DNA of 64,000 nucleotides. Origin: Motilibacter deserti (GTDB taxonomy: Bacteria > Actinomycetota > Actinomycetes > Motilibacterales > Motilibacteraceae). Of the stretch, positions 16,900 through 62,071 are shown one piece after another. How positions within the stretch are numbered: the stretch's first letter is position 1; each line of letters starts with the position of its first letter. The DNA is taken from positions 1-64,000 of the forward strand of contig NZ_JAANNP010000004.1 in the NCBI RefSeq assembly GCF_011250635.1, written 5' to 3'. The notes beneath the pieces are model-generated. The model was given only the letters and a program-made list of their open reading frames with translations, was not told the origin of the DNA and ran no database searches. A program made the translations under genes and the position numbers.

Positions 16900-19800
16900 T
16901 CAGCCGGCCGTGCACACCGCCAGCGCGAGGTCGAAGGCTCTGGCCGCCGAGAGCGTGCTCCCGGCCGCGCACGCGTCGTCGGCCCGGTCCCCGAGGTCCC
17001 GCCGCGCGGGCGCGAGCGCCTCCTCCAGCTGGGACTGCTGAGCGGGGGAGCGGGGGCTTCCGATCTCGTGGCGCAGGCGCTCGGCGGCCGACATCAGCTG
17101 CAGCGCCTCGGCCGGCATCCCGACGTGGCCCGCGAGGACCGCGACGTCCTCGTAGAGGATGCTGAGCGCCCACTTGTCGTCGTACGCGCGATAGCAGCGC
17201 AGGCTCTCGGCGTAGTGGTGCCTCGCCGCGGCGAACTCCGCCAGCCCGCGGTTCGCGTTGCCGAGGTTGTTGTGGGCGATGGCGACCATCCACAGGTCGC
17301 CGACCTCGACGTTGATCCGCATCGACTCCTCGAAGTGGGAGCGCGCGGTGGCGCAGTCGGCCTCCAGCAGGGCGATCATGCCGAGGTTGTTCTGCGACAC
17401 CCCGATCGCCCACCGGTCCCCGATCTCCGTACGCAGGGCGAGCGCCTGCTCGTTGAGCGAGCGGGCGCGCGCGTAGTCCCCGGCGTACTCCGCGATCACG
17501 CCGAGGTTGCTGAGCAGCGAGGCCATGCTCGCCTTGTCCCCGAGCCGCCGGCGGATCTCCAGGCTCTGCTCGTAGGACGCGTTCGCCTCGGGATAGTTGC
17601 CCCGCTGGGCAGCGAGCGTGCCGCGCTGGTGCAGCACCTGTCCTGTCCCGCCCGCGTGACCCAGGGCCGAGAACGCGATACCGGCCAGCTCGAGGCCGTC
17701 GGCCGCCTCGTCGTAGCGGCCCTGCTTGCGGGCGACCTCGGCGAGCGCCGTCAACGCCCACGCCACCGTGAGCCGGTCCTCGTGACGCTCCGCGAGGTCG
17801 AACGCCTCGCGGTAGACCGCCTCGGCCTCGGTCCAGCTGCCGGTCAGCTCCAGGACCTTGCCCAGCTTGAGCAGGGCCTCGGGACGCTCCCGCTCGCCCA
17901 GCAGCGGGGCGAGCCGCTCGAAGTAGTCGATGGCCGCCGCGTTGGCGTAGGCCGCCCGGGCGGCCTCCCCGGCCCGGGCGAGGTACTCGCGCTTCTTGTC
18001 GTCGTTCCCGCTGCGCCAGTAGTGGTGGGCGAGCAGGTCGAGCCGGTGCGGGGCGCCCGATGCAGCCTCGATGTGCCGGGCGACCTGCTCGTGCAGGACG
18101 GCGCGGACGGCGTACGGGATGCTCTCGTAGGCGACCTCGCGGGTCACGACGTGCTTGAACAGGTACGACGAGACGTCCGCGTCCGGGTCCGGCAGCACCA
18201 GGTCGTTCGCCGTGAGCGCGTCGAGGCTGTGGCGCAGGCCCTCCTCGGCGAGCTCGGGATAGGCGCCCTGCAGAGTGCGAGTGGAGAAGGCGCGCCCGAC
18301 GACGCTCGCGACCTTCAGCGTGCGCCGCGGGTCCTCGCTCAGCGTGTCGATGCGGCTGAGGACCAGGCTGTGCAGGCTCTCCGGCAGGTCCAGCTGCGCG
18401 ATCGCGGCCTCGTCGTCGGGTGCCACGCCACGGCTGCGCAGATAGCTCAGCAGCTCCTCGACGTAGAACGGGTTGCCCTCCGAGCGCTCGGCCACGAGGC
18501 TCTCCAGGGCGGGTGAGGGCTCGCGCACGCCGAACAGCTGCTCGAGCTTGGCGGCGATCAGCCGGCTCGTCGCGTCGCCACCGAGCTCGCCGAGCGCCAG
18601 CTCCGTCACGTGCGCGGCCCCCCCCAGGCCCAGGGCGGAGGCGGTGCCCTCCTCGGGCCGGTAGGCCAGGACCAGGAGCACGCGCAGGGACGCGATCGCC
18701 GACACGACCACGTCGAGCAGGTCCCGCGAGAGCGGGTCGAGCCGGTGGCAGTCCTCGAGCACCAGCACCAGCGGCTCGTCCGCGGCGCGCCGCGCGAGGT
18801 ACTGCGCCAGCAGGGCCTCGAGCGAGGCCTTGCGCAGCTTGCCCTCGAAGGCGCGGGTGAGGTCGTTGTCCGGGAACGAGGTGCCGAGGACCGGCCCGAG
18901 CAGCGGGATGCGCGGGACGAGCCCGGGGTTGCTGAGCTTGAAGTGCCACTCGAGAGCCAGCAGCTGGTCCGGCGGCGAGGCCTCGCGGTCGACCCGGAGC
19001 AGGTCCAGCCAGACGTCCTGCCACGCGGCGTAGCTCGTGCTCGTCCCGAACGCCTGCGCCTCGCCCACACAGGCCGTGACGCCCTCGGACCGGGCCTGCT
19101 CGACGAGCTCGGCGACCAGCCGCGACTTGCCCATGCCGGCCTCGGCGGCGATCGCGACGACCTGCCCCTCGCCCGTCAGCGCCCGGTGCAGCCGGGAACG
19201 CAGCACCTCGAGCTCACGCTCCCGGCCGACGATCGGCAGCCCGTGGCGGCGGCCGCCGACGGAGGGGCGGCGGCGCTCCCCGGCGAGCCGGCGCACGGCG
19301 ACCGGCACCACCTTGCCCTTCACCGGCAGGTCGGGCAGCGCGCTCCAGGCGTAGCCCTCGCCGGCCCTCCGCGCGACCTGGGCCGAGGCGTAGACCTGCC
19401 CGGGCGGCGCCGCCGACATCAGCCGGGCCGCGAGGTTCACCGCGTCGCCGAGGCAGCAGAACGTCCGCCGGCTGCTGTGGCCGTAGGTCCCGCTGCGCAG
19501 CCTGCCCTGCGCGACACCGATGGAGATCCCGGTGGCGGCCGTGGTGCCCTCCAGGTCACGCAGCTCCAGGGCGGCCGCGCAGGCCCGCGCCGCGTCGTCC
19601 TCATGGGCGATGGGGGAGCCGAAGACGGCGTAGAGGTAGGCGCCCTTGTCCCCGAGCGTCAGCTGAAGGGCACTGCCGCCGAAGCGGTTGATCACCCGCT
19701 GGGCGCGGACGATGAACTCGTCCAGGTCGGCCGGCGCCGTGGGGGAGTTGTCGTAGTCGATCCCGCCGAAGCGCAGGAAGAGCGGGATGGCCGGACGGAT

Positions 19801-20601
19801 CTCGGCGAGGAACTCGCCCCGCCCGGCGCGCATCCGCTCGTACACCGGCGGCAGGAGCCACTGGCGGACGACGTCGTCGGGCAGCGGCGCGTGCTTCGTG
19901 CGCAGCGGCGCAGGCTGCACCTCGACGAGCACCTCGTGGAGGGCGGCCGCCCACCGCCCGGAGGGCAGGTCACGCCGGTCCCCGGCGCGGACCCTGTCGC
20001 CCAGCGACGTGAGCGCGGAGGAGTCGAGGACGACCTCACCACGCTCGGCGGCCTTCTCGACCCCCGCGAGGTGGTCCATGAGCGAGCCGGCCAGCACGTC
20101 GAGCAGTTGGATGCCGGGGTCGCCGACGACGAACCGCCGGGCGGGACCGACGGCCAGTGCGACCTTCATGGCGAGGCGAACGTGCATGCCGGATGGGGTG
20201 GCCACGAGGCCGACCTCGGCTAGCGCGGACTGCATCGCGAGCGCGCAGGCCGCGCCGAGCAGCCCGTCGTCCCCGTTGAGCCAGCAGGTGACGGCGTCGC
20301 CGCTGAAGTAGATGACGCTGCCGCCGAAGCGGTGCAGCTCTCCCAGGAGCCGGTCGAACACCCGCCCCAGCGTCGCGGCGAGCTCCTCGGCCCCGCGCTG
20401 CGGGCCGAGGTCCTCGACCAGCGCCTCGGTCAGCCGGGTGAAGCCGGAGATGTCGGCGAACAACGCTGTGCCGAAGACTCTTTCGGGCATCGGCATCCCG
20501 GCAGCCAGCGCCGCCCGTCGGTCGCCGGGGATGTAGGCCTCGGGGTTGTCGTAGCCGCCCGGTGAGGCTGCGGCACCCGGCTCGAGCGCAAGGCCCGGCA
20601 C
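16900..20601 (-). CDS. Double class III cyclase-domain / AAA ATPase / TPR signalling protein
   Basis: A 1233-residue multidomain protein. A first cyclase homology domain spans about residues 40-190, with TALFADISGFTRLTE and FSGDAVTCWLNG carrying the two metal-binding Asp. A second, more degenerate unit (about 270-420) ends in FCCLGDAVNLAARLMS. An AAA/STAND ATPase follows, with Walker A AAEAGMGKSRLV near residue 487 and LVLEDCHRLDPLS. About 300 residues of TPR helices complete it. The tandem arrangement resembles eukaryotic-type adenylate cyclases, and cyclic AMP production is possible but not proven. The frame is open far upstream into a divergent gene. A GGGAGG site followed 4 bases later by GTG sets the start at 20601. 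It converges on the SARP gene. Confidence 0.88.
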   Translation of the reverse strand: MPGLALEPGAAASPGGYDNPEAYIPGDRRAALAAGMPMPERVFGTALFADISGFTRLTEALVEDLGPQRGAEELAATLGRVFDRLLGELHRFGGSVIYFSGDAVTCWLNGDDGLLGAACALAMQSALAEVGLVATPSGMHVRLAMKVALAVGPARRFVVGDPGIQLLDVLAGSLMDHLAGVEKAAERGEVVLDSSALTSLGDRVRAGDRRDLPSGRWAAALHEVLVEVQPAPLRTKHAPLPDDVVRQWLLPPVYERMRAGRGEFLAEIRPAIPLFLRFGGIDYDNSPTAPADLDEFIVRAQRVINRFGGSALQLTLGDKGAYLYAVFGSPIAHEDDAARACAAALELRDLEGTTAATGISIGVAQGRLRSGTYGHSSRRTFCCLGDAVNLAARLMSAAPPGQVYASAQVARRAGEGYAWSALPDLPVKGKVVPVAVRRLAGERRRPSVGGRRHGLPIVGRERELEVLRSRLHRALTGEGQVVAIAAEAGMGKSRLVAELVEQARSEGVTACVGEAQAFGTSTSYAAWQDVWLDLLRVDREASPPDQLLALEWHFKLSNPGLVPRIPLLGPVLGTSFPDNDLTRAFEGKLRKASLEALLAQYLARRAADEPLVLVLEDCHRLDPLSRDLLDVVVSAIASLRVLLVLAYRPEEGTASALGLGGAAHVTELALGELGGDATSRLIAAKLEQLFGVREPSPALESLVAERSEGNPFYVEELLSYLRSRGVAPDDEAAIAQLDLPESLHSLVLSRIDTLSEDPRRTLKVASVVGRAFSTRTLQGAYPELAEEGLRHSLDALTANDLVLPDPDADVSSYLFKHVVTREVAYESIPYAVRAVLHEQVARHIEAASGAPHRLDLLAHHYWRSGNDDKKREYLARAGEAARAAYANAAAIDYFERLAPLLGERERPEALLKLGKVLELTGSWTEAEAVYREAFDLAERHEDRLTVAWALTALAEVARKQGRYDEAADGLELAGIAFSALGHAGGTGQVLHQRGTLAAQRGNYPEANASYEQSLEIRRRLGDKASMASLLSNLGVIAEYAGDYARARSLNEQALALRTEIGDRWAIGVSQNNLGMIALLEADCATARSHFEESMRINVEVGDLWMVAIAHNNLGNANRGLAEFAAARHHYAESLRCYRAYDDKWALSILYEDVAVLAGHVGMPAEALQLMSAAERLRHEIGSPRSPAQQSQLEEALAPARRDLGDRADDACAAGSTLSAARAFDLALAVCTAG

Positions 20602-20817
20602 TCCGCCTCCCGCCGTCAGCGCGATGCGAGACCGGCGCTGGTGCGCGCGGTCGTCCCCGGGTCGCGGCGGAGCTTGCGCCTCTTCCGGGGTGGGGCCAGC
20701 ATAATCGGCCGGGGGGTTCGGCGACGGGGCGAAATGCGGCGGCAGCCGTGGGTCCTGTCGTGCCAGCCGTCCGGGCCGCCGGCGCCGGGCGAGCCGTCGT
20801 GGGGGGAAGTGGAGGCC

Positions 20818-21669
20818 GTGAGGCTGCTGCTGCTCGGCGTCCGGGGGTCGATCGCCGCCCCGGGCCACCGGTACGCCCGGTACGGCGGCAACACCTCGTG
20901 CGTCGCGGTCTATCGCGGGGACGAGCCTCTGCCGGCGCTGTGCCTGGACGCGGGGACGGGCCTGCGGCTGCTGAGCCCGCAGCTGCGCGGGCGGCCCTTC
21001 ACGGGGGCGGTCCTCCTGACCCACCTGCACTGGGACCACATGCAGGGCATCCCGTTCTTCACCGCAGCGGACCGGGACGACGCGGAGGTCGACGTCTATG
21101 TCCCGGCCCAGGACGGCAGGAGCGGGCGCGACCTGCTGGCGCAGTCGATGTCGCCGCCCGCCTTCCCCATCACCCCGGAGGACCTCGCAGGCCGATGGCG
21201 CTTCGTCGCCCTCGAGCCCGGCGTGCACCACGTCGGCGGGCTCCGGGTGGAGGCCGTCGCGGTCACGCACAAGGGCGGCCGCACCTACGGCTACCGCGTC
21301 ACGGACGGGGCGCGGTCCTGCGCCTACCTCCCGGACCACGCCCCGGCCCTGGGGTGCCCGCCCGAGGTCCTGGACCTCGTCCGCGGCGTGGACGTCCTGC
21401 TGCACGACGCGCAGTTCCTCGACTCCGAGCGCGCCCTCGCCGACGCGTACGGCCACTCGACGCTCGGGGACGCGGTTGGGCTGGCGGTCGCGGCCGAGGT
21501 CGGCACACTGGTGCTGACCCACCACGCGCCGGCCCGCGACGACGACGGGCTCGACGACGTCGCGGAGGCGGCGCGTGCGCTGGTCGCCGCCTCGGCGCGG
21601 CCGGCGATGCGGCTCGTCATGGCCCGGGAGGGCGACCTGCTCGAGGTGGCGACGACAGACCCGGCGTAG
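20818..21669 (+). CDS. Metallo-beta-lactamase-fold phosphodiesterase-like protein
   Basis: A 283-residue MBL-fold hydrolase. LLTHLHWDHMQG is the metal-binding HxHxDH signature. LHDAQFLDSE gives the bridging Asp region and LTHHAPARDDD the last His. The N-terminus MRLLLLGVRGSIAAPGHRY matches the phosphoribosyl 1,2-cyclic phosphodiesterase type, where the start is followed by GxRGS and a YGGNTSC turn. The exact substrate is unknown. The start was placed at GTG 20818 from this family N-terminus; an in-frame GTG at 20809 is a close alternative. It is divergent from the cyclase-ATPase gene. The frame remains open upstream to 20641, but that part is not protein-like. Confidence 0.85.
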   Translation: MRLLLLGVRGSIAAPGHRYARYGGNTSCVAVYRGDEPLPALCLDAGTGLRLLSPQLRGRPFTGAVLLTHLHWDHMQGIPFFTAADRDDAEVDVYVPAQDGRSGRDLLAQSMSPPAFPITPEDLAGRWRFVALEPGVHHVGGLRVEAVAVTHKGGRTYGYRVTDGARSCAYLPDHAPALGCPPEVLDLVRGVDVLLHDAQFLDSERALADAYGHSTLGDAVGLAVAAEVGTLVLTHHAPARDDDGLDDVAEAARALVAASARPAMRLVMAREGDLLEVATTDPA

Positions 21670-52909: not shown

Positions 52910-54163
52910 ATGCGCGATCGGTCGGCCGGGCTGCCGCCCGGGTCGGTCCCGCCCCGCACGCCCCGCCCGCAGCCGGCACCCGTCTGCGCCAGCGCCCGCA
53001 TCGCCCGGCTCCGCCGGGAGCTCGAGGACGACCCTCATGCCGTGCAGCGTCTGTGGGACGAGGCCGAGGCGGCCGGCACTCCGTTGCTCGAGCCCGCGGG
53101 CAGCCCGGACGAGTGCGTCGCCACGTTCCTCTGGCGGGGCGAAGCGGGACGCGTGCTGCTGCTGGCGAACAAGCTCACCGACCGCAGCCACCTCGAGCGC
53201 AGCCTGATGGAGCGGGTGCCCGGGACCGACGTGTGGCACCTGTCCTACCGGCTGCCGACCCGGTGGCGGGGCAGCTACGTCTTCGCACCCGGCCCGGCGG
53301 GCGACACGGCCGCGCTGCGCGAGCTGGCGTCCCGCGCGGGCCTGCCCGACCCATACAACTGCCGAATCCTGCTTCAGCCCCCGGGTGTGGGTGCCCGCTC
53401 GGTGGCCGAGCTCCCGCAGGCCCCGGCGCAGGCATACCTCCGCGCCCGCCCAGGCGTCCCGCGCGGCGAGGTGGTCGAGCACGACGTGCAGGGAGCTGAG
53501 CTCGGCTCCCGGCGGGTGTGGGCGTACACCCCGGCAGCCCCTGCGGGGAGCGCGTTGCCCCTCCTGGTCCTGCTCGACGGCGAGATGTGGCTGCACCGGC
53601 TCTCGATCGTGCCGACCCTGGACAACCTGATCGCCGACGGAGCGGTCCCACCGCTCGTCGCCGTCATGCCGGAAGCCGGGACCAGAGAAGCCCGCTTCCG
53701 AGACCTGTCCTGCTCGGACAGCTTCACCCGCTTCCTCGCCACGGAGCTTGCTCCCTGGGCGTCCGCCTCGCTCGGTGCGACAGAGGACCCGGCGCGCACC
53801 GTCGTCGCGGGGCAGAGCCTCGGGGGCCTCGCCGCCGCGTACGCAGCCCTGGAGCACCCGGACAGGCTCGGCGCGGTGCTGGCGCAGTCCGGCTCCTGGT
53901 GGTGGCCGAGCGCCAACCCCGACGGCGTTCCGCCCGAAGCGCTCACCCGGCGGGTGCGGGAGCGCGCGTCCGTACCGGTGCGGTTCTACCTCGAGAACGG
54001 CACCGACGAGTGGGTCAGCCTCGAGCCGGCCCGGCGACTGCGCGACGCCCTCCGCGGGCGCGGCTACACGGTGGACTACCGGGAGTTCTGCGGCGGGCAC
54101 GACCAGGCGTGCTGGCGGGGCGGCATCGCGGACGGGCTGACCGCTCTGCTCCGAGGAGCCTGA
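52910..54163 (+). CDS. fes: Enterochelin esterase-like (Fes) protein
   Basis: A 417-residue protein with an N-terminal Fes-type beta domain (ATFLWRGEAGRVLLLANKLTD; WHLSYRLPTRWRGSYVF) and a C-terminal esterase domain: VWAYTPAAPAGSALPLLVLLDGEMW, nucleophile Ser in VAGQSLGGLAAAYAALEH, and catalytic His in the C-terminal CGGHDQACW. Fes opens ferric-enterobactin-like siderophores inside the cell to free iron. No signal peptide is seen. The ATG has GGAGGAAGG upstream. The following gene is an iron-siderophore binding lipoprotein with an iron box in front, supporting an iron role. Confidence 0.9.
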   Translation: MRDRSAGLPPGSVPPRTPRPQPAPVCASARIARLRRELEDDPHAVQRLWDEAEAAGTPLLEPAGSPDECVATFLWRGEAGRVLLLANKLTDRSHLERSLMERVPGTDVWHLSYRLPTRWRGSYVFAPGPAGDTAALRELASRAGLPDPYNCRILLQPPGVGARSVAELPQAPAQAYLRARPGVPRGEVVEHDVQGAELGSRRVWAYTPAAPAGSALPLLVLLDGEMWLHRLSIVPTLDNLIADGAVPPLVAVMPEAGTREARFRDLSCSDSFTRFLATELAPWASASLGATEDPARTVVAGQSLGGLAAAYAALEHPDRLGAVLAQSGSWWWPSANPDGVPPEALTRRVRERASVPVRFYLENGTDEWVSLEPARRLRDALRGRGYTVDYREFCGGHDQACWRGGIADGLTALLRGA

Positions 54164-54211: not shown

Positions 54212-55237
54212 ATGTGGGTCTCGCGATTTCCCCGGCTGCTCGTCGCTGTCACGGGCGCCACCCTCGCCGCCGTCGCCGTCACCGGGTGCTCGACGGGTGA
54301 CGGCTCCGACAGCGCGTCGGCCGCGTCCTCGGCCGCCGGCACCCGCACGATCACCGACGCCTCCGGCGCCGAGGTGCAGGTGCCGGCCGCGCCGTCCCGC
54401 GTGGTCGCACTGAGCGAGCCGACGCTCGACGGCGCCCTCGCGCTCGGCGTGACACCCGTGGGCACCACGAACGGCCGTGGCCAGGGCAGCGTGCCCGCGT
54501 ACCTCGGCGACCGGGCCGGGGACATTCCCGTCGTCGCCACCATCGGCTCCCCGGACCTGGAGAAGATCGCCGCGCTCCAGCCGGACCTGATCCTCGTGGA
54601 CGGAACGACGTCCTCGGACGAGTCCGTGATCGGCAAGCTGCGCGGCATCGCCCCGACGGTCTTCGTGAGCGTGAGCGGCCAAGACTGGAAGACCGCCTTC
54701 ACGGCGCAGGCCGACGCCCTCGGGCGCGCGGCGCAGGGGGAGAAGGTCCTGTCCGACTACGAGGCCCGGGTCGAGCAGATCAAGGGCGCACTGGGCCCGA
54801 ACGCCGGCGCGACCGTCAGCATCGTGCGCTGGTCGGGCCAGCCGCAGGTGCTGATGAAGGAGCTCCTGCCCGGCAAGGTCGTGGCGGACCTCGGCCTCGC
54901 CCGTCCCGCCTCGCAGAACATGGAGGGGCCCGGCCACTCGGTGCCGATCAGCCTGGAGAACCTGCAGGAGATCGACGCCGACTGGGTCTTCTTCGGCACG
55001 CTCGGCGGCGGCGGCGCGGGGCCGGGCGGCGGAGCGAGCCAGACGGGCACCGGCGCCGAGGCGAGCGCGAAGGCGCTGGTCCAGGCCGGCCAGTCGCCGG
55101 GCTTCACCAGCCTCAAGGCCTACACGGCTCACCGGATCGTGCCGGTGGACGGCTCGGCCTGGATGAGCGCGGGCGGCCCGCTCGCGGCGACGACCATCCT
55201 GGACACCGTGCAGCAGACGCTCGCGGCAGGAGCCTGA
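54212..55237 (+). CDS. Iron-siderophore ABC transporter binding lipoprotein
   Basis: A 341-residue lipoprotein. The signal peptide ends in the lipobox AVTGC, whose Cys would carry the lipid anchor. The rest is a helical-backbone periplasmic-binding fold: RTITDASGAEVQVPAAPSRVVAL, the first-lobe block LGVTPVG, and LEKIAALQPDLILVDG, which ends the lobe at the usual TYPE III binding motif. It binds ferric siderophore outside the cell and hands it to an importer, but no permease or ATPase is beside it. An iron box overlaps its promoter. Confidence 0.9.
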   Translation: MWVSRFPRLLVAVTGATLAAVAVTGCSTGDGSDSASAASSAAGTRTITDASGAEVQVPAAPSRVVALSEPTLDGALALGVTPVGTTNGRGQGSVPAYLGDRAGDIPVVATIGSPDLEKIAALQPDLILVDGTTSSDESVIGKLRGIAPTVFVSVSGQDWKTAFTAQADALGRAAQGEKVLSDYEARVEQIKGALGPNAGATVSIVRWSGQPQVLMKELLPGKVVADLGLARPASQNMEGPGHSVPISLENLQEIDADWVFFGTLGGGGAGPGGGASQTGTGAEASAKALVQAGQSPGFTSLKAYTAHRIVPVDGSAWMSAGGPLAATTILDTVQQTLAAGA

Positions 55238-55325: not shown

Positions 55326-56087
55326 GTGGCGGACCCGACGGCGCAGTCGCTGCTGGCCGACCTCGCCCGGCTGGCCGGCGTGCTCGGCCCCGCCGTACGC
55401 CCTGTCGACACCGACCGCCTGCTCGCGACCATCACCCGATCGGCGCGCCAGCTGTTCGGCGCCCGGGCCTGCTCGATCGCGCTGCTCACCGAGGACGACA
55501 GCGAGCTGGTCTACACGACGGCGTCGGGTGAGGGCGAGGACGACGTGACCGGGATGCGGCTGCCCTCGGGCACGGGCATCGCCGGCTGGGTCGTGATGTC
55601 GGGGCAGCCGGTGGCCATCAGCGACCTGGAGTCCGACGCGCGGTTCGCCCGCGACGTCGCCGAGGGCACGGGCTATGTGCCGCGCGCGATGCTCGCCGTC
55701 CCCGTCAACGACGGAGACCGCGTGCTCGGGGTCATGACCCTGCTGGACCGTGACGATGGCCGGCCCGGCGCCGAGCAGGACATGGCGCTGCTGGCGGTCT
55801 TCGCCGACCAGACCGCGCTCACGCTACGCACGGAGCGGGCGCTCGGCGACCTCGGCCGCACCTTGCTCGCCACTCTCGCCCGCGCCGCCGGCGACGGCAC
55901 CGACCTCGCCGCGGCCGCGGACCGGGCGGGTGACGAGGTGCCGCCGGTGAGCGCCGACCTCCTCGAGCTGGCCGGGCTCTTCGCCGACCTGCAGCGCATG
56001 GGCGAGGCCGAGCACCGCCTCGCGCTGCGCGTCGTTCGCGAGGTGACGGCGTACGCGGCAAGGAGGCGACCACGAGCGGGGCGCTGA
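55326..56087 (+). CDS. GAF domain protein
   Basis: A 253-residue soluble protein: an N-terminal helix, then a GAF domain (about residues 30-180) with RLLATITRSARQLFGARACSIALL, GTGIAGWVVMSGQPVAISDL and AMLAVPVNDGDRVLGVMTLLDR, and a C-terminal helical part. No output domain is present, so it may signal by contact with a partner. GTG at 55326 has GGAAGGGG upstream; GTG at 55302 is possible. Its 3' end overlaps the candidate start of the subtilisin gene, so the two are likely coupled. Confidence 0.85.
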   Translation: MADPTAQSLLADLARLAGVLGPAVRPVDTDRLLATITRSARQLFGARACSIALLTEDDSELVYTTASGEGEDDVTGMRLPSGTGIAGWVVMSGQPVAISDLESDARFARDVAEGTGYVPRAMLAVPVNDGDRVLGVMTLLDRDDGRPGAEQDMALLAVFADQTALTLRTERALGDLGRTLLATLARAAGDGTDLAAAADRAGDEVPPVSADLLELAGLFADLQRMGEAEHRLALRVVREVTAYAARRRPRAGR

Positions 56088-56131
56088 GGCCGGCCTGGTC
56101 CGAGGCGTTCCTCGCGGACGCGCTCTCGCCG

Positions 56132-56899
56132 GTGCGGGTCCCGGACGTGGGCGTGACCCGGGAGTGGGCCTTCGCCGGTGCCACGGGGCGCGGCGTCGAC
56201 GTCGCCGTCGTGGACAGCGGCATCGACGCGGCGCACCCGGCCGTGGGCGAGGTCGCCGGCGGTGCCGCCCTGCGCTGGGACCGGGAGCGGCAGGAGATCG
56301 AGAGCGTCGAAGGGCCGCACGAGGACCTGTTCGGGCACGGCACCGCGTGCGCGGGGATCATCCGCAAGGCGGCCCCCGAGTGCCGGCTGCTGAGCGTCCG
56401 CGTGCTCGGCGAGCGGCTCAGCGGCAAGGGGCTGGTGTTCGCCGAGGGCATCCGGTGGGCGGTCCGGTCGGGCGCGCGCGTGGTGAACCTGAGCATGTCC
56501 ACCGGCAACGAGGACCTGCACTCGCTGCTCCACGACGTGGCCGACGAGGCGTACTTCGCCGGCACCGTCCTCGTCTGCGCGGTGAACAACGTGCGGGCGG
56601 CGAGCTACCCCTCGCAGTACGCCTCCGTCATCTCCGTCGCCGCCAACGACGCGACCGGGCCGTTCGACATCGACTGCAACCCGCACCCACCGGTCGAGTT
56701 CGGAGCGCCCGGCATCGACCTCGAAGTGGCCTGGCTGGGAGGCGGGACCATCGTCGCGACCGGCAACTCCTTTGCCGCGCCGCACGTGGCGGGCCTGGTC
56801 GCCCGGCTGCTGAGCAAGCATCCCGACCTCGTGCCGGCCGAGGTCAAATCGGTGCTGCGCGCGGTCTCCCGCAATGCGCTGCCTGTGTCAGCGGGATGA
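56132..56899 (+). CDS. Cytosolic subtilisin-like (S8) peptidase without a signal peptide
   Basis: A 255-residue (or about 275-residue) compact subtilase with the full triad: Asp in VAVVDSGIDAAH, His in LFGHGTACAGII, Ser in TGNSFAAPHVAGL. The Asn of the oxyanion hole is in CAVNNVRAASYPSQY. It has no signal or propeptide, so it acts inside the cell or is exported by another route. No ATG, GTG or TTG with an SD begins the domain. AAGGAGG (56060-56066) is followed 5 bases later by ACG at 56072, in frame, which may be a rare ACG start; the GTG at 56132 is the conservative choice used here. It is overlapped by the GAF gene at the extended end. Confidence 0.85.
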   Translation: MRVPDVGVTREWAFAGATGRGVDVAVVDSGIDAAHPAVGEVAGGAALRWDRERQEIESVEGPHEDLFGHGTACAGIIRKAAPECRLLSVRVLGERLSGKGLVFAEGIRWAVRSGARVVNLSMSTGNEDLHSLLHDVADEAYFAGTVLVCAVNNVRAASYPSQYASVISVAANDATGPFDIDCNPHPPVEFGAPGIDLEVAWLGGGTIVATGNSFAAPHVAGLVARLLSKHPDLVPAEVKSVLRAVSRNALPVSAG

Positions 56900-56998
56900 C
56901 GCAGGAAATGTCCGCCAACTGACAGACGCGCGCTCCGCGGCGGAGCAGAGTTCCCCTCAGACGCCGGACCGCCCGGCTCGCACAGCAGGGGAGCAGCA

Positions 56999-57214
56999 AT
57001 GAGCCACATCGTTCCGACCGAAGGCCCGGACGACGCGCTGGGGCACGTGAGCCTGGGCGACCCCGGCGAGATCCCCGTCGAGGGCGGGCGTGCCCGTCTC
57101 CCGCTCCCGGGCGACGAGGACGACGCGCACGGCCACCGGGTCATCGCCGCGCAGGGTGACGAGGGCGGCCAGGGCGAGCAGGGCGGCGACGAGCCCCGCC
57201 TCATCGCGCAGTAG
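56999..57214 (+). CDS. Small acidic protein, possible peptidase substrate
   Basis: A 71-residue, hydrophilic, Gly/Asp/Glu-rich protein without Cys. Two similar short segments, HRVIAAQGDE and PRLIAQ, lie near the C-terminal half. No domain is recognised. ATG with GGGGAG 5 bases upstream, and a perfect hairpin 20 bases after the stop, mark it as a separate unit. Its place directly after an intracellular subtilase and before an exporter-like gene makes a processed peptide possible, but nothing proves it. Confidence 0.6.
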   Translation: MSHIVPTEGPDDALGHVSLGDPGEIPVEGGRARLPLPGDEDDAHGHRVIAAQGDEGGQGEQGGDEPRLIAQ

Positions 57215-57233
57215 GGCCTCGGCCCACCCCAGT

Positions 57234-57264
57234 GGCCGGGGACGCGTCTGCCGCGTCCCCGGCC
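57234..57264 (+). terminator. Terminator after the small acidic protein gene
   Basis: A perfect 12-bp stem GGCCGGGGACGC/GCGTCCCCGGCC (57234-57245 and 57253-57264) with a 7-base loop. A GTG at 57232 would start the MFS gene inside this hairpin, so the MFS start was moved to 57304. Confidence 0.85.
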
Positions 57265-57303
57265 GCTGCTGTCCACCGCCCGTACCGTCCTCCGGAGAGA
57301 CCC

Positions 57304-58974
57304 GTGCCGGCTCGAACCCGCGGCCGCTACCGCAGCGCCCTGCGCTCGCGCGACCTGCGCGTCCTGCTCGCCGCGTTCACCGTGGACGCGATCGGCAGCT
57401 GGGCATACAACGTCGTCCTCGTCGTCTACGTGTTCGACCGGACCGGCTCCGCGGGCATGATCGCGGTCACCACCGCGTGCGGCTGGCTGCCCCGGCTCCT
57501 CTTCTCCGCGTACGCCGGGGTGCTCGCCGACCGCTACGAGCGCTCGCGGGTCATGGTCATGTCCGCCCTCGTGTGCAGTGCGGTGACCTTCGCGCTGGCC
57601 GCCGTCCTCGCCGTCGACGGGCCGCTGGCGATCGTCCTCGGGCTGCACGCGCTCATCGCGCTGTGCAACACGCCGTACGCGCCGGCCGTGCAGGCGGTCG
57701 TCCCGGACACCGTGCCGGAGGAGGACCTCGCCCCGGCCAACGCGCTCTTCGGGTCCCTCGAGAACCTCGTCACCGTGGCCGGCCCGGCCATCGGCGCGCT
57801 GCTGCTGCTCACCGGTGAGCCCGAGGTCGGCGTGCTCCTGGACGCCGTCACCTTCCTGCTCGCAGCCGTCATGCTCTCCCGGCTCCGGGTACGCAGCCGC
57901 GGGGACGCCGCCGACGGGCGGAGCCCGCTCGGGCGGCAGCTCGCCGCGGGCGTGGCCGCCCTGCGAGCCGAGCGAACGGCCCTCGTCCTCACCGTGTATT
58001 GCGCGCTCGACAGCGCGGTCTACGGCGCGCTCACCGTGCTCTTCGTCCCGCTCAGCGTGAAGTACGGGACCGGCCCCGACGGCTACGGCTACCTGCTCGC
58101 GAGCATGGCGCTGGGCGGCGTCCTCGCCGCAGGCCTGGTCAACCAGCTCGCGTCGGCACCCCGTCTCGCGCCCGTCATCGTGGGCGGCATGTGCCTGCTG
58201 GCGCTGCCCGTCGCCCTGGCCGCGCAGGTGCCGTGGCCGGTGCTCGGCGCGCTCGTCCTCGTGATCTCCGGCGCAGGGATGCTCGCCGTCGACGTGCTCG
58301 CGGTGACGGCGCTGCAGCGCGACGTGCCGAGCAACGTGCTCAGCCGGGTCTTCGGGATCCTCAACTCGCTCGTGCTTGCCGCCATCCTGCTTTCCAGCGC
58401 CGCGACGAGCGCGCTGCTGAGCGTGCTGTCGCTCGAGGCCACCGCGGCCCTCGTCGGGCTGGGCATCGCCGCGGTCAGCGTCGCCGGGATGGCGCCCCTG
58501 CTGCGCGCCGACCGGTCCTCTGCCGACGACGTCCGGCTGCTCGGCCGGCGAGTCGCGCTCCTCGAAGGCCTGGACCTCTTCGCCGGCGCGACCCGCCCGA
58601 CGATGGAGCAGCTGGCCCGCTCGGCGCAGGAGGTCGAGCTCGCCGATGGAGACGTGGCCGTCGCGGAGGGCGATCCGGCCGACGCGCTCTACGTCCTCGT
58701 GCACGGTACGGTCACGGTCACCGCACGAGGATCGCTGCTGGCGGAGCTGTCGGCCCCCGCGTACTTCGGCGAGATCGGTGTGCTGCGCGGCGTCCCCCGG
58801 ACGGCGACCGTGACGGCGGCGGAGCCGGTGTCGCTCTGGCGGGTGTCGGGCGCCGACTTCCTCACCGCGCTGGAGACGGGCAGCGCGAGCCCGGCGATGC
58901 TCGGGACGGTCAGTGCTCGGCTGGCGCGAGGCGGGGTGCCGGCGGTCGTGCATCCGGCGCCGGCGGGGGCTTGA
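57304..58974 (+). CDS. MFS transporter fused to a cyclic-nucleotide-binding domain
   Basis: A 556-residue fusion. Residues about 15-400 form a 12-helix MFS protein: VDAIGSWAYNVVLVVYVFDRTGSAG at helix 1, GVLADRYERSRVMV as motif A, and NALFGSLENLVTVAGPAIGALL in the middle. The final 150 residues form a CRP-like cNMP domain: VELADGDVAVAEGDPADALYVLVHGTVTV, YFGEIGVLRGVPRTATVTA with the phosphate-binding EIGVL..RTATV loop. So a nucleotide could control transport. GTG at 57304 has GGAGAG about 6 bases upstream. The substrate is unknown. Confidence 0.88.
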   Translation: MPARTRGRYRSALRSRDLRVLLAAFTVDAIGSWAYNVVLVVYVFDRTGSAGMIAVTTACGWLPRLLFSAYAGVLADRYERSRVMVMSALVCSAVTFALAAVLAVDGPLAIVLGLHALIALCNTPYAPAVQAVVPDTVPEEDLAPANALFGSLENLVTVAGPAIGALLLLTGEPEVGVLLDAVTFLLAAVMLSRLRVRSRGDAADGRSPLGRQLAAGVAALRAERTALVLTVYCALDSAVYGALTVLFVPLSVKYGTGPDGYGYLLASMALGGVLAAGLVNQLASAPRLAPVIVGGMCLLALPVALAAQVPWPVLGALVLVISGAGMLAVDVLAVTALQRDVPSNVLSRVFGILNSLVLAAILLSSAATSALLSVLSLEATAALVGLGIAAVSVAGMAPLLRADRSSADDVRLLGRRVALLEGLDLFAGATRPTMEQLARSAQEVELADGDVAVAEGDPADALYVLVHGTVTVTARGSLLAELSAPAYFGEIGVLRGVPRTATVTAAEPVSLWRVSGADFLTALETGSASPAMLGTVSARLARGGVPAVVHPAPAGA

Positions 58975-59073
58975 GCCAAGGCTGTGGGCCCGCGGGCCTG
59001 ATGGCGGCCGGCGCGGCGACCGCCTGTGGATCGTCGGGGAAGGCGTGCGGTCAGCTGCGGCAAGGTCGCAGCC

Positions 59074-60279
59074 GTGACCATCTCAGTGGCGAGCGAGCCG
59101 TCGGCAGGACTGCCGCCTGGCCCGCGAGCGCTGCTCGAGGAGGCGCTCGGCGAGCTTCAGGCGCTGGATCCGGAGAGCGTGTCCGCGACCGGGCTCGCGG
59201 ACGCGATCCGGACCGTGCAGACGTGGGAGCGGCGGCTCGCGGCGTTCCGGGCGCGGCTGGTCGGCGAGTTCGAGGCACGCGGGGCGTGCCTGGCCGAGGG
59301 CGCGCTGAGCCCGACGGCCTGGCTGGAGCGCGAGCTGAACCTGACGCGGGGTGAGGCGCACGCGGCCCGCCGTGCAGCGCGTGTGTCGCGGGCGCTGCCG
59401 GAAGTCGCGGCCGCGTTCGCCTCGGGGGAGCTGACTGCGCGGCAGATCGACCAGCTCGGTCATGTCGTCGACCGGCACGGCGCAGGTGCCGTCCGGCAGT
59501 TCGAGCCGGAACTGGTGTCGGTCGGCCGGACAGCTCCGGCGAAGGAGCTCGGCGCGGTGTTGCGCCGGGTCGAGCACGGGTTGGACCCTGACCGGGCACG
59601 CGAGGCCGAGCTGCGACGGCTGGCGGGCAGGCACCTGACGCTGACGCGCACCGGCGACGGGATGTGGGACGTGCACGGCATGCTCGCGCCGGAAGACGGC
59701 GAGGTGCTGCAGTCCGCGCTGCTACCGCTCGCCGGCCCGGTCCCGCAGCCGGACGGTTCCGAGGACCTGCGGTTGAGCGGCGAACGACAGCTTGACGCGC
59801 TCGTCGAGCTGTGCCGGAGGGCACTGGACCGGGGCGACCTCCCGGACCTCGGCGGGGACAAGCCCCACGTCACGCTCGTGGTCGACCTCGCGACGCTGCG
59901 CCAGGAGAGCGTGTGGGGAGGGAGCTCGGCGTCGGCGCTGTGGGGTGCCTCGCTGGGCAGAGACGCGTTGCTGCGGCTCTGTTGCGACTCCTCGGTCTCG
60001 ACCGTGGTCTCCGACGGTCTCGCGGTGGGACGACTCGATCCCGCCGCCCTTGGCGCCCTCCGGGACGGGCAGGGTCGGCTGTCGGGCCTCGGGCTACCCC
60101 TGGCCTCCGGGCGGACCATCCGCTCGGTGTCACCCGCCCAGCGCCGGGCGCTCGTCATGCGCGACGGAGGGTGTGTGTTCCCCGCGTGCGCGCGATCACC
60201 CGGCTTCAGCGACGCGCATCACGTCGTCCACTGGGCCCATGGAGGTGACACGGAGCTCGCGAACCTCGCCAGTCGTTGA
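59074..60279 (+). pseudogene. DUF222 / HNH gene cut in its HNH motif (13E12 family, truncated)
   Basis: A 401-residue frame homologous to the DUF222/HNH gene at 11063. DUF222 is complete, and the HNH begins (CVFPACARSPGFSDAHHVVHWAHGGDTELANL), but the frame then reads A-S-R-stop. The intact copy continues ILLCRRHHRIVH. Sequence similarity ends at about 60267, exactly where the gene should read the last HNH strand and helix. The missing part is probably at the far end of the element, outside the window. The truncated protein lacks the last metal and catalytic His residues. Confidence 0.88.
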
Positions 60280-60397
60280 GACATCCCCCTGCGGCGACCG
60301 CGCTCGACAGACTTCCTCAATCTTCACATTCGTCTCCCGGTGCACCTGCCGACGTGGAAGGCTGTCGCGACGAACACTCAACGGGGAGGACTGCACG

Positions 60398-62071
60398 GTG
60401 GTCGTGATACCAGAGGAACTCATTACCCTTGCTGCCGACAAGAGGCTGATACCGTTCCTGGGGGCGGGCTTCTCCGATTCCTTAAACCTTCCGACATGGG
60501 AGTCGATGCTGCGAGCTTTATGTACTAGCATCGAGGGTTCGCTATCCTTCGACGAGCTTCGGCAGGCAACTGGGAACGATTATTTGCAGATCGCCGAGTA
60601 TCTCTATCTCAAATGCGACCGCCACATTGGGCCGATTCGACACCAACTTGAGCGTAGCTTGAGCTCTCACATCAGCCCCCTGGTGTCTGACCCCCACCTA
60701 GAACTCGCAAATCTAGGTGCGCCACAGATCTACACAACGAACTATGACGACCTCATCGAGGAAACCTATAGGCGACTCGCGCTGCCGGTGAGCGTGGTTG
60801 TGCTGCCGAAGCATGTAGCACTTGCTCACACCGACCGTACTCAGATTGTGAAGTATCATGGTGACCTTCAACACGAACAGACACTAGTCCTGACGGAGTC
60901 GGCGTACTACAAACGACTGGACTTCGAGTCGCCAATGGACTTGAAGTTCCGTTCTGACCTGTTGGGCAAGTCGGTCTTGTTTATGGGTTACAGCTTCCGT
61001 GATGTGAATATTCGTATCGTGTGGTTCAAGCTCATGGAGATGATGCGGGATATTCCAGAGGCCGACCGCCGCCCCTCATACATAGTGCGTTTGGAATCGA
61101 ACGCAGCCCTTGAAGAGCTCTATAGTGCTGTAGGGCTGAAGACTGTCGTACTCAGTCCTGACGGGCCGGTGAAGGACCGCGCAGATCGGGCACGCTTGCT
61201 CGCTGATTTCCTGCTCGAGTTGTCTACACGTGCAGGCACGCGTGCCTCCGGTGGACAGGTAATTGCATCCGGGGCGCTGCTTCGTGCCGTCGAAACGCAG
61301 ATTCAAGAAACCGAACGCATCTTCTCGCCATTTCTTGGTGAGCCGAGGCTTGGCGGCGCGGGCATCCTCGGAGCACGCGATAAATATGTCGGCAAGTTGC
61401 TGAGTGCGGTGATTCCCGAGCCGCACGTGAGCGCGACGCATCAGGCGCTGGAGAAGGCCATGCCCTACCTAGGGATGGATGACTTTGTCAGTATCGCACG
61501 CCGGATTCCGGCGTCGCGCACGTTGACAGAGAATGTCGTCCGGATGCTGGCGGCCGGCGGTCATGAAGAGGCGCGGTCGACGAAGCGGCGACTAGTTCAC
61601 TCTCTCTCTGACTGGTCCAAAATCTGGAGTTGTCCCGTTGGCTCGAAGACAGCCGACTTCGTGCTGCGGGCCTTCGCCAAGGAGATTACGTACCAGAGCC
61701 AGCAGGGGGCGGACGAGGATATCGCCTACTTGGCGGACCTTGTCGCTCGCATCAGTCAGGGCGACCTCGTTGATGGGTCCAAGGTGGATGCTCTCCGAGG
61801 AGAGGCGGCCGAACTGCTTGGCATTGCGCGGCTTGTCTATCCGAGTATCGGCGACCTTCAGCCGGCCCGGGACGCTCCTCCCCAACTCAGCTCCGTACTG
61901 CAGGAGGTTTCCCAGCGAGCGACGGCGTTTGCGCCGGTTGAGTTGCCACGTGCCGCCCTCGACTCTCTCAGAATGAAAGAACTCAGGCTGAATATTGACG
62001 GCAGAGAAGGAGTCAGAGCGCGCCCACAACCCGCGCCTCGTCGCCGACCGTCCGTCGCACGCCCGTCTTGA
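60398..62071 (+). CDS. SIR2-domain protein, candidate NAD-hydrolysing anti-phage effector
   Basis: A 557-residue protein. Residues about 10-210 are a SIR2_2-type (PF13289-like) domain: RLIPFLGAGFSDSLNLPTW binds NAD, IYTTNYDDLIE holds the key Asn (N115), VKYHGDL the catalytic His (H154), and LFMGYSFRDVNIR (197-206) the third motif. Residues 210-557 are mostly helical and unrelated to anything I recognise. This two-part layout is seen in defence proteins that deplete NAD on phage infection (DSR, Thoeris-like and SIR2-Argonaute systems). GTG has GGGGAGGA 7 bases upstream. The gene is visibly less GC-rich than its surroundings until its last roughly 20 codons, which are GC-rich and repetitive (RPQPAPRRRPSVARPS) and may be junction sequence. 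Confidence 0.85.
   Translation: MVVIPEELITLAADKRLIPFLGAGFSDSLNLPTWESMLRALCTSIEGSLSFDELRQATGNDYLQIAEYLYLKCDRHIGPIRHQLERSLSSHISPLVSDPHLELANLGAPQIYTTNYDDLIEETYRRLALPVSVVVLPKHVALAHTDRTQIVKYHGDLQHEQTLVLTESAYYKRLDFESPMDLKFRSDLLGKSVLFMGYSFRDVNIRIVWFKLMEMMRDIPEADRRPSYIVRLESNAALEELYSAVGLKTVVLSPDGPVKDRADRARLLADFLLELSTRAGTRASGGQVIASGALLRAVETQIQETERIFSPFLGEPRLGGAGILGARDKYVGKLLSAVIPEPHVSATHQALEKAMPYLGMDDFVSIARRIPASRTLTENVVRMLAAGGHEEARSTKRRLVHSLSDWSKIWSCPVGSKTADFVLRAFAKEITYQSQQGADEDIAYLADLVARISQGDLVDGSKVDALRGEAAELLGIARLVYPSIGDLQPARDAPPQLSSVLQEVSQRATAFAPVELPRAALDSLRMKELRLNIDGREGVRARPQPAPRRRPSVARPS

Follow-up and report, generated by a model that had tools for sequence, protein, structure and literature searches.

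A four-gene locus around a cytosolic subtilase

The DNA considered here is a 64-kb stretch of the genome of Motilibacter deserti (assembly GCF_011250635.1, contig NZ_JAANNP010000004.1, positions 1–64,000; hereafter the window), and our subject is a locus at positions 55326–58974, where the window sequence and profile searches place consecutively the genes for a GAF-domain protein, a subtilase of family S8, a 71-residue acidic protein and a transporter of the major facilitator superfamily (MFS) fused to a domain binding cyclic nucleoside monophosphates (cNMPs). This four-gene row had been recognized in a preliminary description of the window, and Pfam confirms its domains. The first gene (55326..56087, + strand, GTG start; GAF PF01590, E 1.8e-22) encodes the partner of the protease, and the last (57304..58974, + strand) indeed combines MFS_1 (E 8e-28) and cNMP_binding (E 1e-16, residues about 444–524) within one protein, as described before.

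The S8 gene (56072..56899, + strand; Peptidase_S8, E 2e-28) encodes 275 residues with the N-terminus TSGALRPAWSEAF and a catalytic domain beginning at about residue 39. The catalytic residues D48, H89 and S233 and the oxyanion residue N173 (window numbering) are invariant in a 45-row alignment, the triad being invariant also across 96 loci, and an AlphaFold2 model comprises a complete catalytic domain with a predicted local distance difference test score of 95.6. By eye we saw neither a signal-like N-terminus nor a propeptide, in agreement with the earlier view that the protease is not exported. The frame offers no ATG, GTG or TTG start ahead of the conserved N-terminus; translation likely begins at an ACG at 56072, served by the ribosome site AAGGAGG and overlapping the GAF stop codon. 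An ACG start seems to be used also in loci L109, L006, L007, L110, L008 and L009, and an ATC in L015; several of these genes have a good ribosome site and overlap the GAF stop. Within the window's clade this unusual start is kept, most other S8 genes using ATG, GTG or TTG. To explain the missing start we also considered programmed frameshifting between GAF and S8 but set it aside, the ACG codon with its ribosome site and conserved position being the simpler solution. We also rejected known identities for the protease, all scores lying under the curated cut-offs: QhpE (NF049966, 118.5 against 165 bits), type VII mycosin (TIGR03921, 122.7 against 278.75) and the PatA/PatG cyanobactin protease (TIGR03895, 40.9 against 421.05).

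A query with the S8 protein brought up 80 named loci, plus 24 genomes belonging to the same class. Among the 103 relatives retrieved, which include some genomes twice and some loci on short contigs, the GAF gene adjoins the S8 gene in 97, and the pair is conserved in Actinomycetota, Chloroflexota and others. Clustering of neighbours and the motif counts given below were done over 96 loci; as these were picked by S8 similarity, the counts describe the S8 family and not bacteria at large. Conservation of the four-gene order, proposed earlier as a check, holds for the most part: GAF–S8 adjacency is nearly universal, and the MFS–cNMP cluster is frequent (41/96 loci), its position varying.

The small open reading frame (ORF; 56999..57214, + strand) is preceded by a Shine–Dalgarno sequence AGGGGAG (56987..56993, + strand), and its G+C content per codon position (0.89/0.48/0.93) is like that of neighbouring genes; judged by these two features it is very likely coding. 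It has no match in Pfam or NCBIfam, the aroma_sacti domain (NF045560) included. An operator-like palindrome TGTC-N8-GACA lies 90 bp before its start (56909..56924, in the extended form TGACAGAC reaching 56927). Downstream follows a strong RNA hairpin (57230..57268, + strand; 17-bp stem, −39.2 kcal/mol, z −7.26 by RNAfold), which has no U run and is therefore not a standard terminator. The preliminary description had given the small ORF its own Shine–Dalgarno sequence and terminator; the former is confirmed, and the latter corresponds to this hairpin, which may or may not act as one.

Small open reading frames carrying an acidic motif

Small ORFs beside GAF–S8 pairs carry the motif [DE][DE][VT]x[GA]H, at least two copies of which occur within one small ORF in 34 of the 96 loci, as compared with 0, 0, 0, 0, 0, 1 and 2 loci for seven control motifs (reversed, permuted and charge-swapped). 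The motif was first spotted by inspecting the loci and then tested with permuted motifs and genome-wide scans; because the inspected loci are the same, the counting is partly non-independent of the discovery. A blind scan of DNA with a strict double motif hit 3 of 297 genomes, all of them S8-positive, and a looser pattern hit 8 of the 24 genomes with S8 and 4 of the 273 without it (Fisher p 2e-7), with the motif lying within about 2 kb of S8 in six S8-positive genomes. Such double-motif patterns overlook divergent precursors, including that of the window.

Many relatives have 2–9 units per ORF, often with a period of 14–17 residues and a spacer specific to each precursor: L006 bears the tandem DDDDVQGHTRLNHGAA, L022 five copies of EDEDVEGHLRAPGRLV, L030 nine units and L114 seven. 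Comparison of units within genes gives a ratio of non-synonymous to synonymous differences (pN/pS) of 0.28, i.e. purifying selection, so the amino acid sequence of the units is kept. No Pfam or NCBIfam family covers these motif-repeat ORFs. In L081 (4632–5171, units IAKIAKIAKIAKI) and L073 (1680–2192, units AHKKAKSRAHKKADS), the spacers between the acidic motifs are cationic and resemble antimicrobial peptides.

Clusters of Asp and His could bind metals, and the window locus adjoins genes for siderophore uptake, so the repeats might be imagined as metal-binding or structural acidic elements next to a general housekeeping protease. Yet the spacers vary among species while staying constant inside a gene, the preferences for Val/Thr and Gly/Ala resemble protease subsites, and siderophore neighbours are absent from most loci; we regard this explanation as very improbable.

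The window's own ORF is a degenerate two-motif member of the family. It contains DDALGH (residues 11–16; 57029..57046, + strand) and DDAHGH (residues 41–46; 57119..57136, + strand), both with Ala at the Val/Thr position, and neither a repeated spacer nor a recognizable core. Two DDAxGH motifs have a composition-shuffle p of about 1.5e-5, and two copies of [DE][DE]xx[GA]H are found in this ORF alone among the 337 small ORFs of the window. A homologue search with it returned nothing convincing beyond itself, with three marginal matches. In the same slot, a sister genome (G003) has a DDTAGH ORF of the 48-residue class, MSETPYDTAPVETPADAAVEDDTDDTAGHMESFLSRRAGADDLEEPLR, followed by a Crp-like gene and MFS–cNMP, and in L005 three DTEGH units stand between S8 and MFS–cNMP. 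From its own two motifs and these counterparts, the window ORF is by sequence a real but divergent member of the family. Absence of conservation of the small ORF had been named beforehand as grounds for abandoning the idea of a functional set; by sequence it is conserved as a motif family, not as an alignable protein.

With two copies only, Ala at the Val/Thr site and no repeated spacer, the window ORF could be taken for the decaying remnant of a precursor, making nothing even if the family as a whole is read correctly. We think this unlikely, as nothing is damaged in its palindrome, ribosome site, codon-position bias or hairpin, and the sister genome retains a motif ORF at the corresponding place.

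The motif at leader/core junctions

In other branches of the S8 family, in Streptomyces- and Ktedonobacteria-type loci, leader and core meet at the equivalent site, [DE]Vx[GA][HY], in precursors of the sactipeptide-like and lanthipeptide kinds, i.e. of ribosomally synthesized and post-translationally modified peptides (RiPPs). Streptomyces-type precursors match the aroma_sacti domain (E 1e-21), the match finishing at EVQAH or DVMAH, and radical SAM enzymes adjoin the precursors with this domain; the S8–GAF pair stands behind a cyclase–AAA gene in the Streptomyces-type order, and the locus examined most closely has both radical SAM and haem-oxygenase-like genes. An IucA/IucC siderophore gene occurs near some of the Streptomyces-type S8–GAF loci. 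In lanthipeptide loci, Nif11-like leaders finish in DVAGY, EVSGY or EVEGY shortly before cores rich in Ser, Thr and Cys, and these precursors adjoin RamC/LanC synthetases, some Chloroflexota loci having lanthionine synthetases of class III type. In Anaerolineae-type loci a helical-looking leader finishes in EVxAH and the units come next, and in L112 and L099 a DDVEAH lies near the N-terminus of a large Ala/Thr-rich protein encoded on the minus strand after the palindrome (two palindromes in L112). One junction is thus common to several precursor architectures. By sequence, precursor type follows the S8 tree, on which 4 changes explain the four types (a quick tree, with types labelled by hand).

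Cytosolic S8 proteases acting on leaders provide a precedent. ElxP recognizes (D/E-5)(L/V-4)xx(Q-1) and AmyP recognizes (T/S/A)EVE (PMC10885120), and leader removal by QhpE takes place in the cytoplasm, prior to export (PMC7876137). Together with the common junction, these precedents make the motif the probable place of cleavage by the neighbouring protease; the analogy would put the cut after His. The junction motif expected for an S8 leader peptidase of RiPPs is present in the family, the window ORF having two copies but no recognizable core. A modification enzyme beside the precursor, as expected of a RiPP cluster in the strict sense, is found in the Streptomyces-type (radical SAM) and lanthipeptide loci; none turned up in the genes inspected around the window locus or in the sampled flanks of other window-type loci.

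The small protein is acidic and adjoins a protease that lacks a propeptide by which it could be held inactive, and GAF–S8 is the tightest pair of the locus; one might accordingly see in the small protein a regulator or inhibitor, its DDxxGH occupying the cleft until the GAF protein senses a ligand and the inhibitor is degraded on that signal, with the exporter being independent. Tandem units with conserved spacers, the position at RiPP junctions and the recurrent exporters, however, fit substrates and not inhibitors, and we consider such a role quite unlikely. For the same reasons, i.e. because tandem units, leader-junction motifs and exporters would go unexplained, we disfavour simple removal of the small protein by a ligand-controlled protease, one of two readings offered in the preliminary description; the ligand-control part, through the GAF protein, may still apply. 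The other reading, in which a peptide is cleaved and then exported, appears from the sequences to be the better of the two and fits all the evidence.

Cyclic-nucleotide context and the proposed peptide pathway

Of 48 precursor genes, 34, the window's among them, have the palindrome TGTC-N8-GACA at most 220 bp upstream, as compared with 1.3% of random windows from the same loci. The site ranks first among 256 tetramer palindromes, the runner-up reaching 7; unrelated spacings occur in 0–2 of the precursor upstream regions, and the 13 with N12 are the same site read through GACAGACA. The extended palindrome has only two copies in the genome the window comes from. Searching around the palindrome in loci without a recognized precursor uncovered motif ORFs in L016, L070, L111, L112 and L099 (4.8% for random positions).

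Crp-like regulators, present in 47 of the 96 loci, would be the natural binders of this site. Cyclase fusions with AAA_16 or NB-ARC occur in 18 plus 10 of the 96 loci (up to 28), and stand-alone cNMP domains are found too. The only class III cyclase domain found in the Motilibacter deserti genome, fused to AAA_16 and TPR (16900..21525, − strand), is situated some 34 kb away from the locus and may be the source of a cNMP signal; in the sister genome, the only such domain is about 10 kb from S8. The repeat motif, the palindrome and this signalling context had escaped the preliminary description.

A PADLOC comparison matches the cyclase and cNMP domains to its Pycsar cyclase and effector profiles, which raises the thought of a Pycsar-type defence in which cyclase-made cNMP activates a cNMP-binding membrane effector and the protease. 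The matches are confined to those two domains, and Pycsar comprises no precursors or RiPP synthetases, nor the palindrome or an MFS protein of exporter type; moreover, the pairing of a cyclase with an adjacent TIR or transmembrane cNMP effector is not seen in the window, whose cyclase is so distant. We therefore rejected this possibility, to which we give almost no credence.

With the genes, the motif family, its tandem repeats and the selection on them, the GAF–S8 association, the junction position, the palindrome and the cNMP neighbours all computed here, we consider it probable that the locus makes a ribosomal peptide whose precursor is cut by the cytosolic S8 protease and exported under cNMP control. 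The small acidic ORF would be the precursor and [D/E][D/E][V/T/A]x[G/A]H the recognition site of the neighbouring protease, which would cleave at every copy, probably directly after the His (P5 acidic, P4 Val/Thr, P2 Gly/Ala, P1 His), freeing one short peptide per unit. The GAF protein would be co-translated with S8 and probably serve as a ligand sensor or a restraint on the protease; the MFS–cNMP fusion would export the products; and a Crp-type regulator acting via TGTC-N8-GACA, together with cyclic nucleotides bound by the exporter, would couple production and export to the cyclase signal.

Several points weigh against this proposal. A fair share of loci yielded no precursor with the searches used, many lack MFS–cNMP in the retrieved stretch, and no Crp-like regulator adjoins the window's genes. 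The window precursor has just two motif copies, both degenerate, and its spacer is not repeated, which makes any product of it hypothetical. Cleavage, the cut site, export, the GAF role, a Crp-like regulator binding the palindrome and the activity of the products are, finally, what we infer from the loci and their relatives.

Like the leader peptidases of lanthipeptides represented by ElxP and, for class III, by AmyP, the locus has an unexported S8 protease encoded with its precursor and the layout acidic, hydrophobic, x, x, P1 directly before the core (PMC10885120); unlike them, the family has a GAF partner, His or Tyr in the last position and multi-unit precursors, and window-type loci have no modification enzyme among the genes examined. 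QhpE, which acts in the maturation of quinohemoprotein amine dehydrogenase, is likewise a cytoplasmic subtilisin-like protease (PMC7876137), whereas the locus differs in both substrate and exporter. The aroma_sacti and StsA-related sactipeptide precursors (NF045560, NF045559) meet our family in the Streptomyces-type branch, where the domain is found with S8, GAF and cyclase–AAA adjoining; the window precursor, in contrast, has no match to the domain and no radical SAM gene beside it. One cyclase–AAA protein of the loci matches the TOMM kinase/cyclase fusion (TIGR03903, E 7e-47), scoring below the curated cut-off (160 against 705.75); the TOMM fusion, too, is tied to modified peptides.

In the yeast alpha-factor and similar multi-copy prohormones, repeated units are separated by protease sites. 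Processing at our locus would differ in being cytosolic, carried out by a subtilase and without a secretion signal. We entertain, as a tentative idea somewhat less likely than not, a bacterial prohormone system, undescribed and spread over several phyla, in which a GAF-controlled subtilase cuts multi-copy propeptides at DDVEGH sites and cNMP-gated MFS export and cyclase–Crp control lead to species-specific signalling or antimicrobial peptides. The GAF–S8 locus is widespread in bacteria and apparently undescribed; a literature search found nothing relevant on DDVEGH, aroma-sacti or combinations of the locus parts, its coverage leaving out most subscription journals, so that absence is unproven. 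If the proposal holds, a large peptide family, unnamed in present libraries, would be added to Actinomycetota and Chloroflexota, the spacer between DDVEGH sites would become a readable code for the products, and cyclic-nucleotide signalling would be tied to peptide production. A recognition rule shared by the S8 proteases of sactipeptide-like and lanthipeptide clusters, [DE]Vx[GA][HY], could, in addition, supply the missing leader protease there.

As for the surroundings of the locus, enterochelin-esterase-like and Fe-siderophore-binding genes lie just upstream (52910–54163 and 54212–55237). On the other side (59026–60400), an HNH endonuclease-type ORF stops abruptly at 60279 and a differing region with a SIR2-like protein begins next, a boundary that, judged by eye, is possibly the edge of an island.

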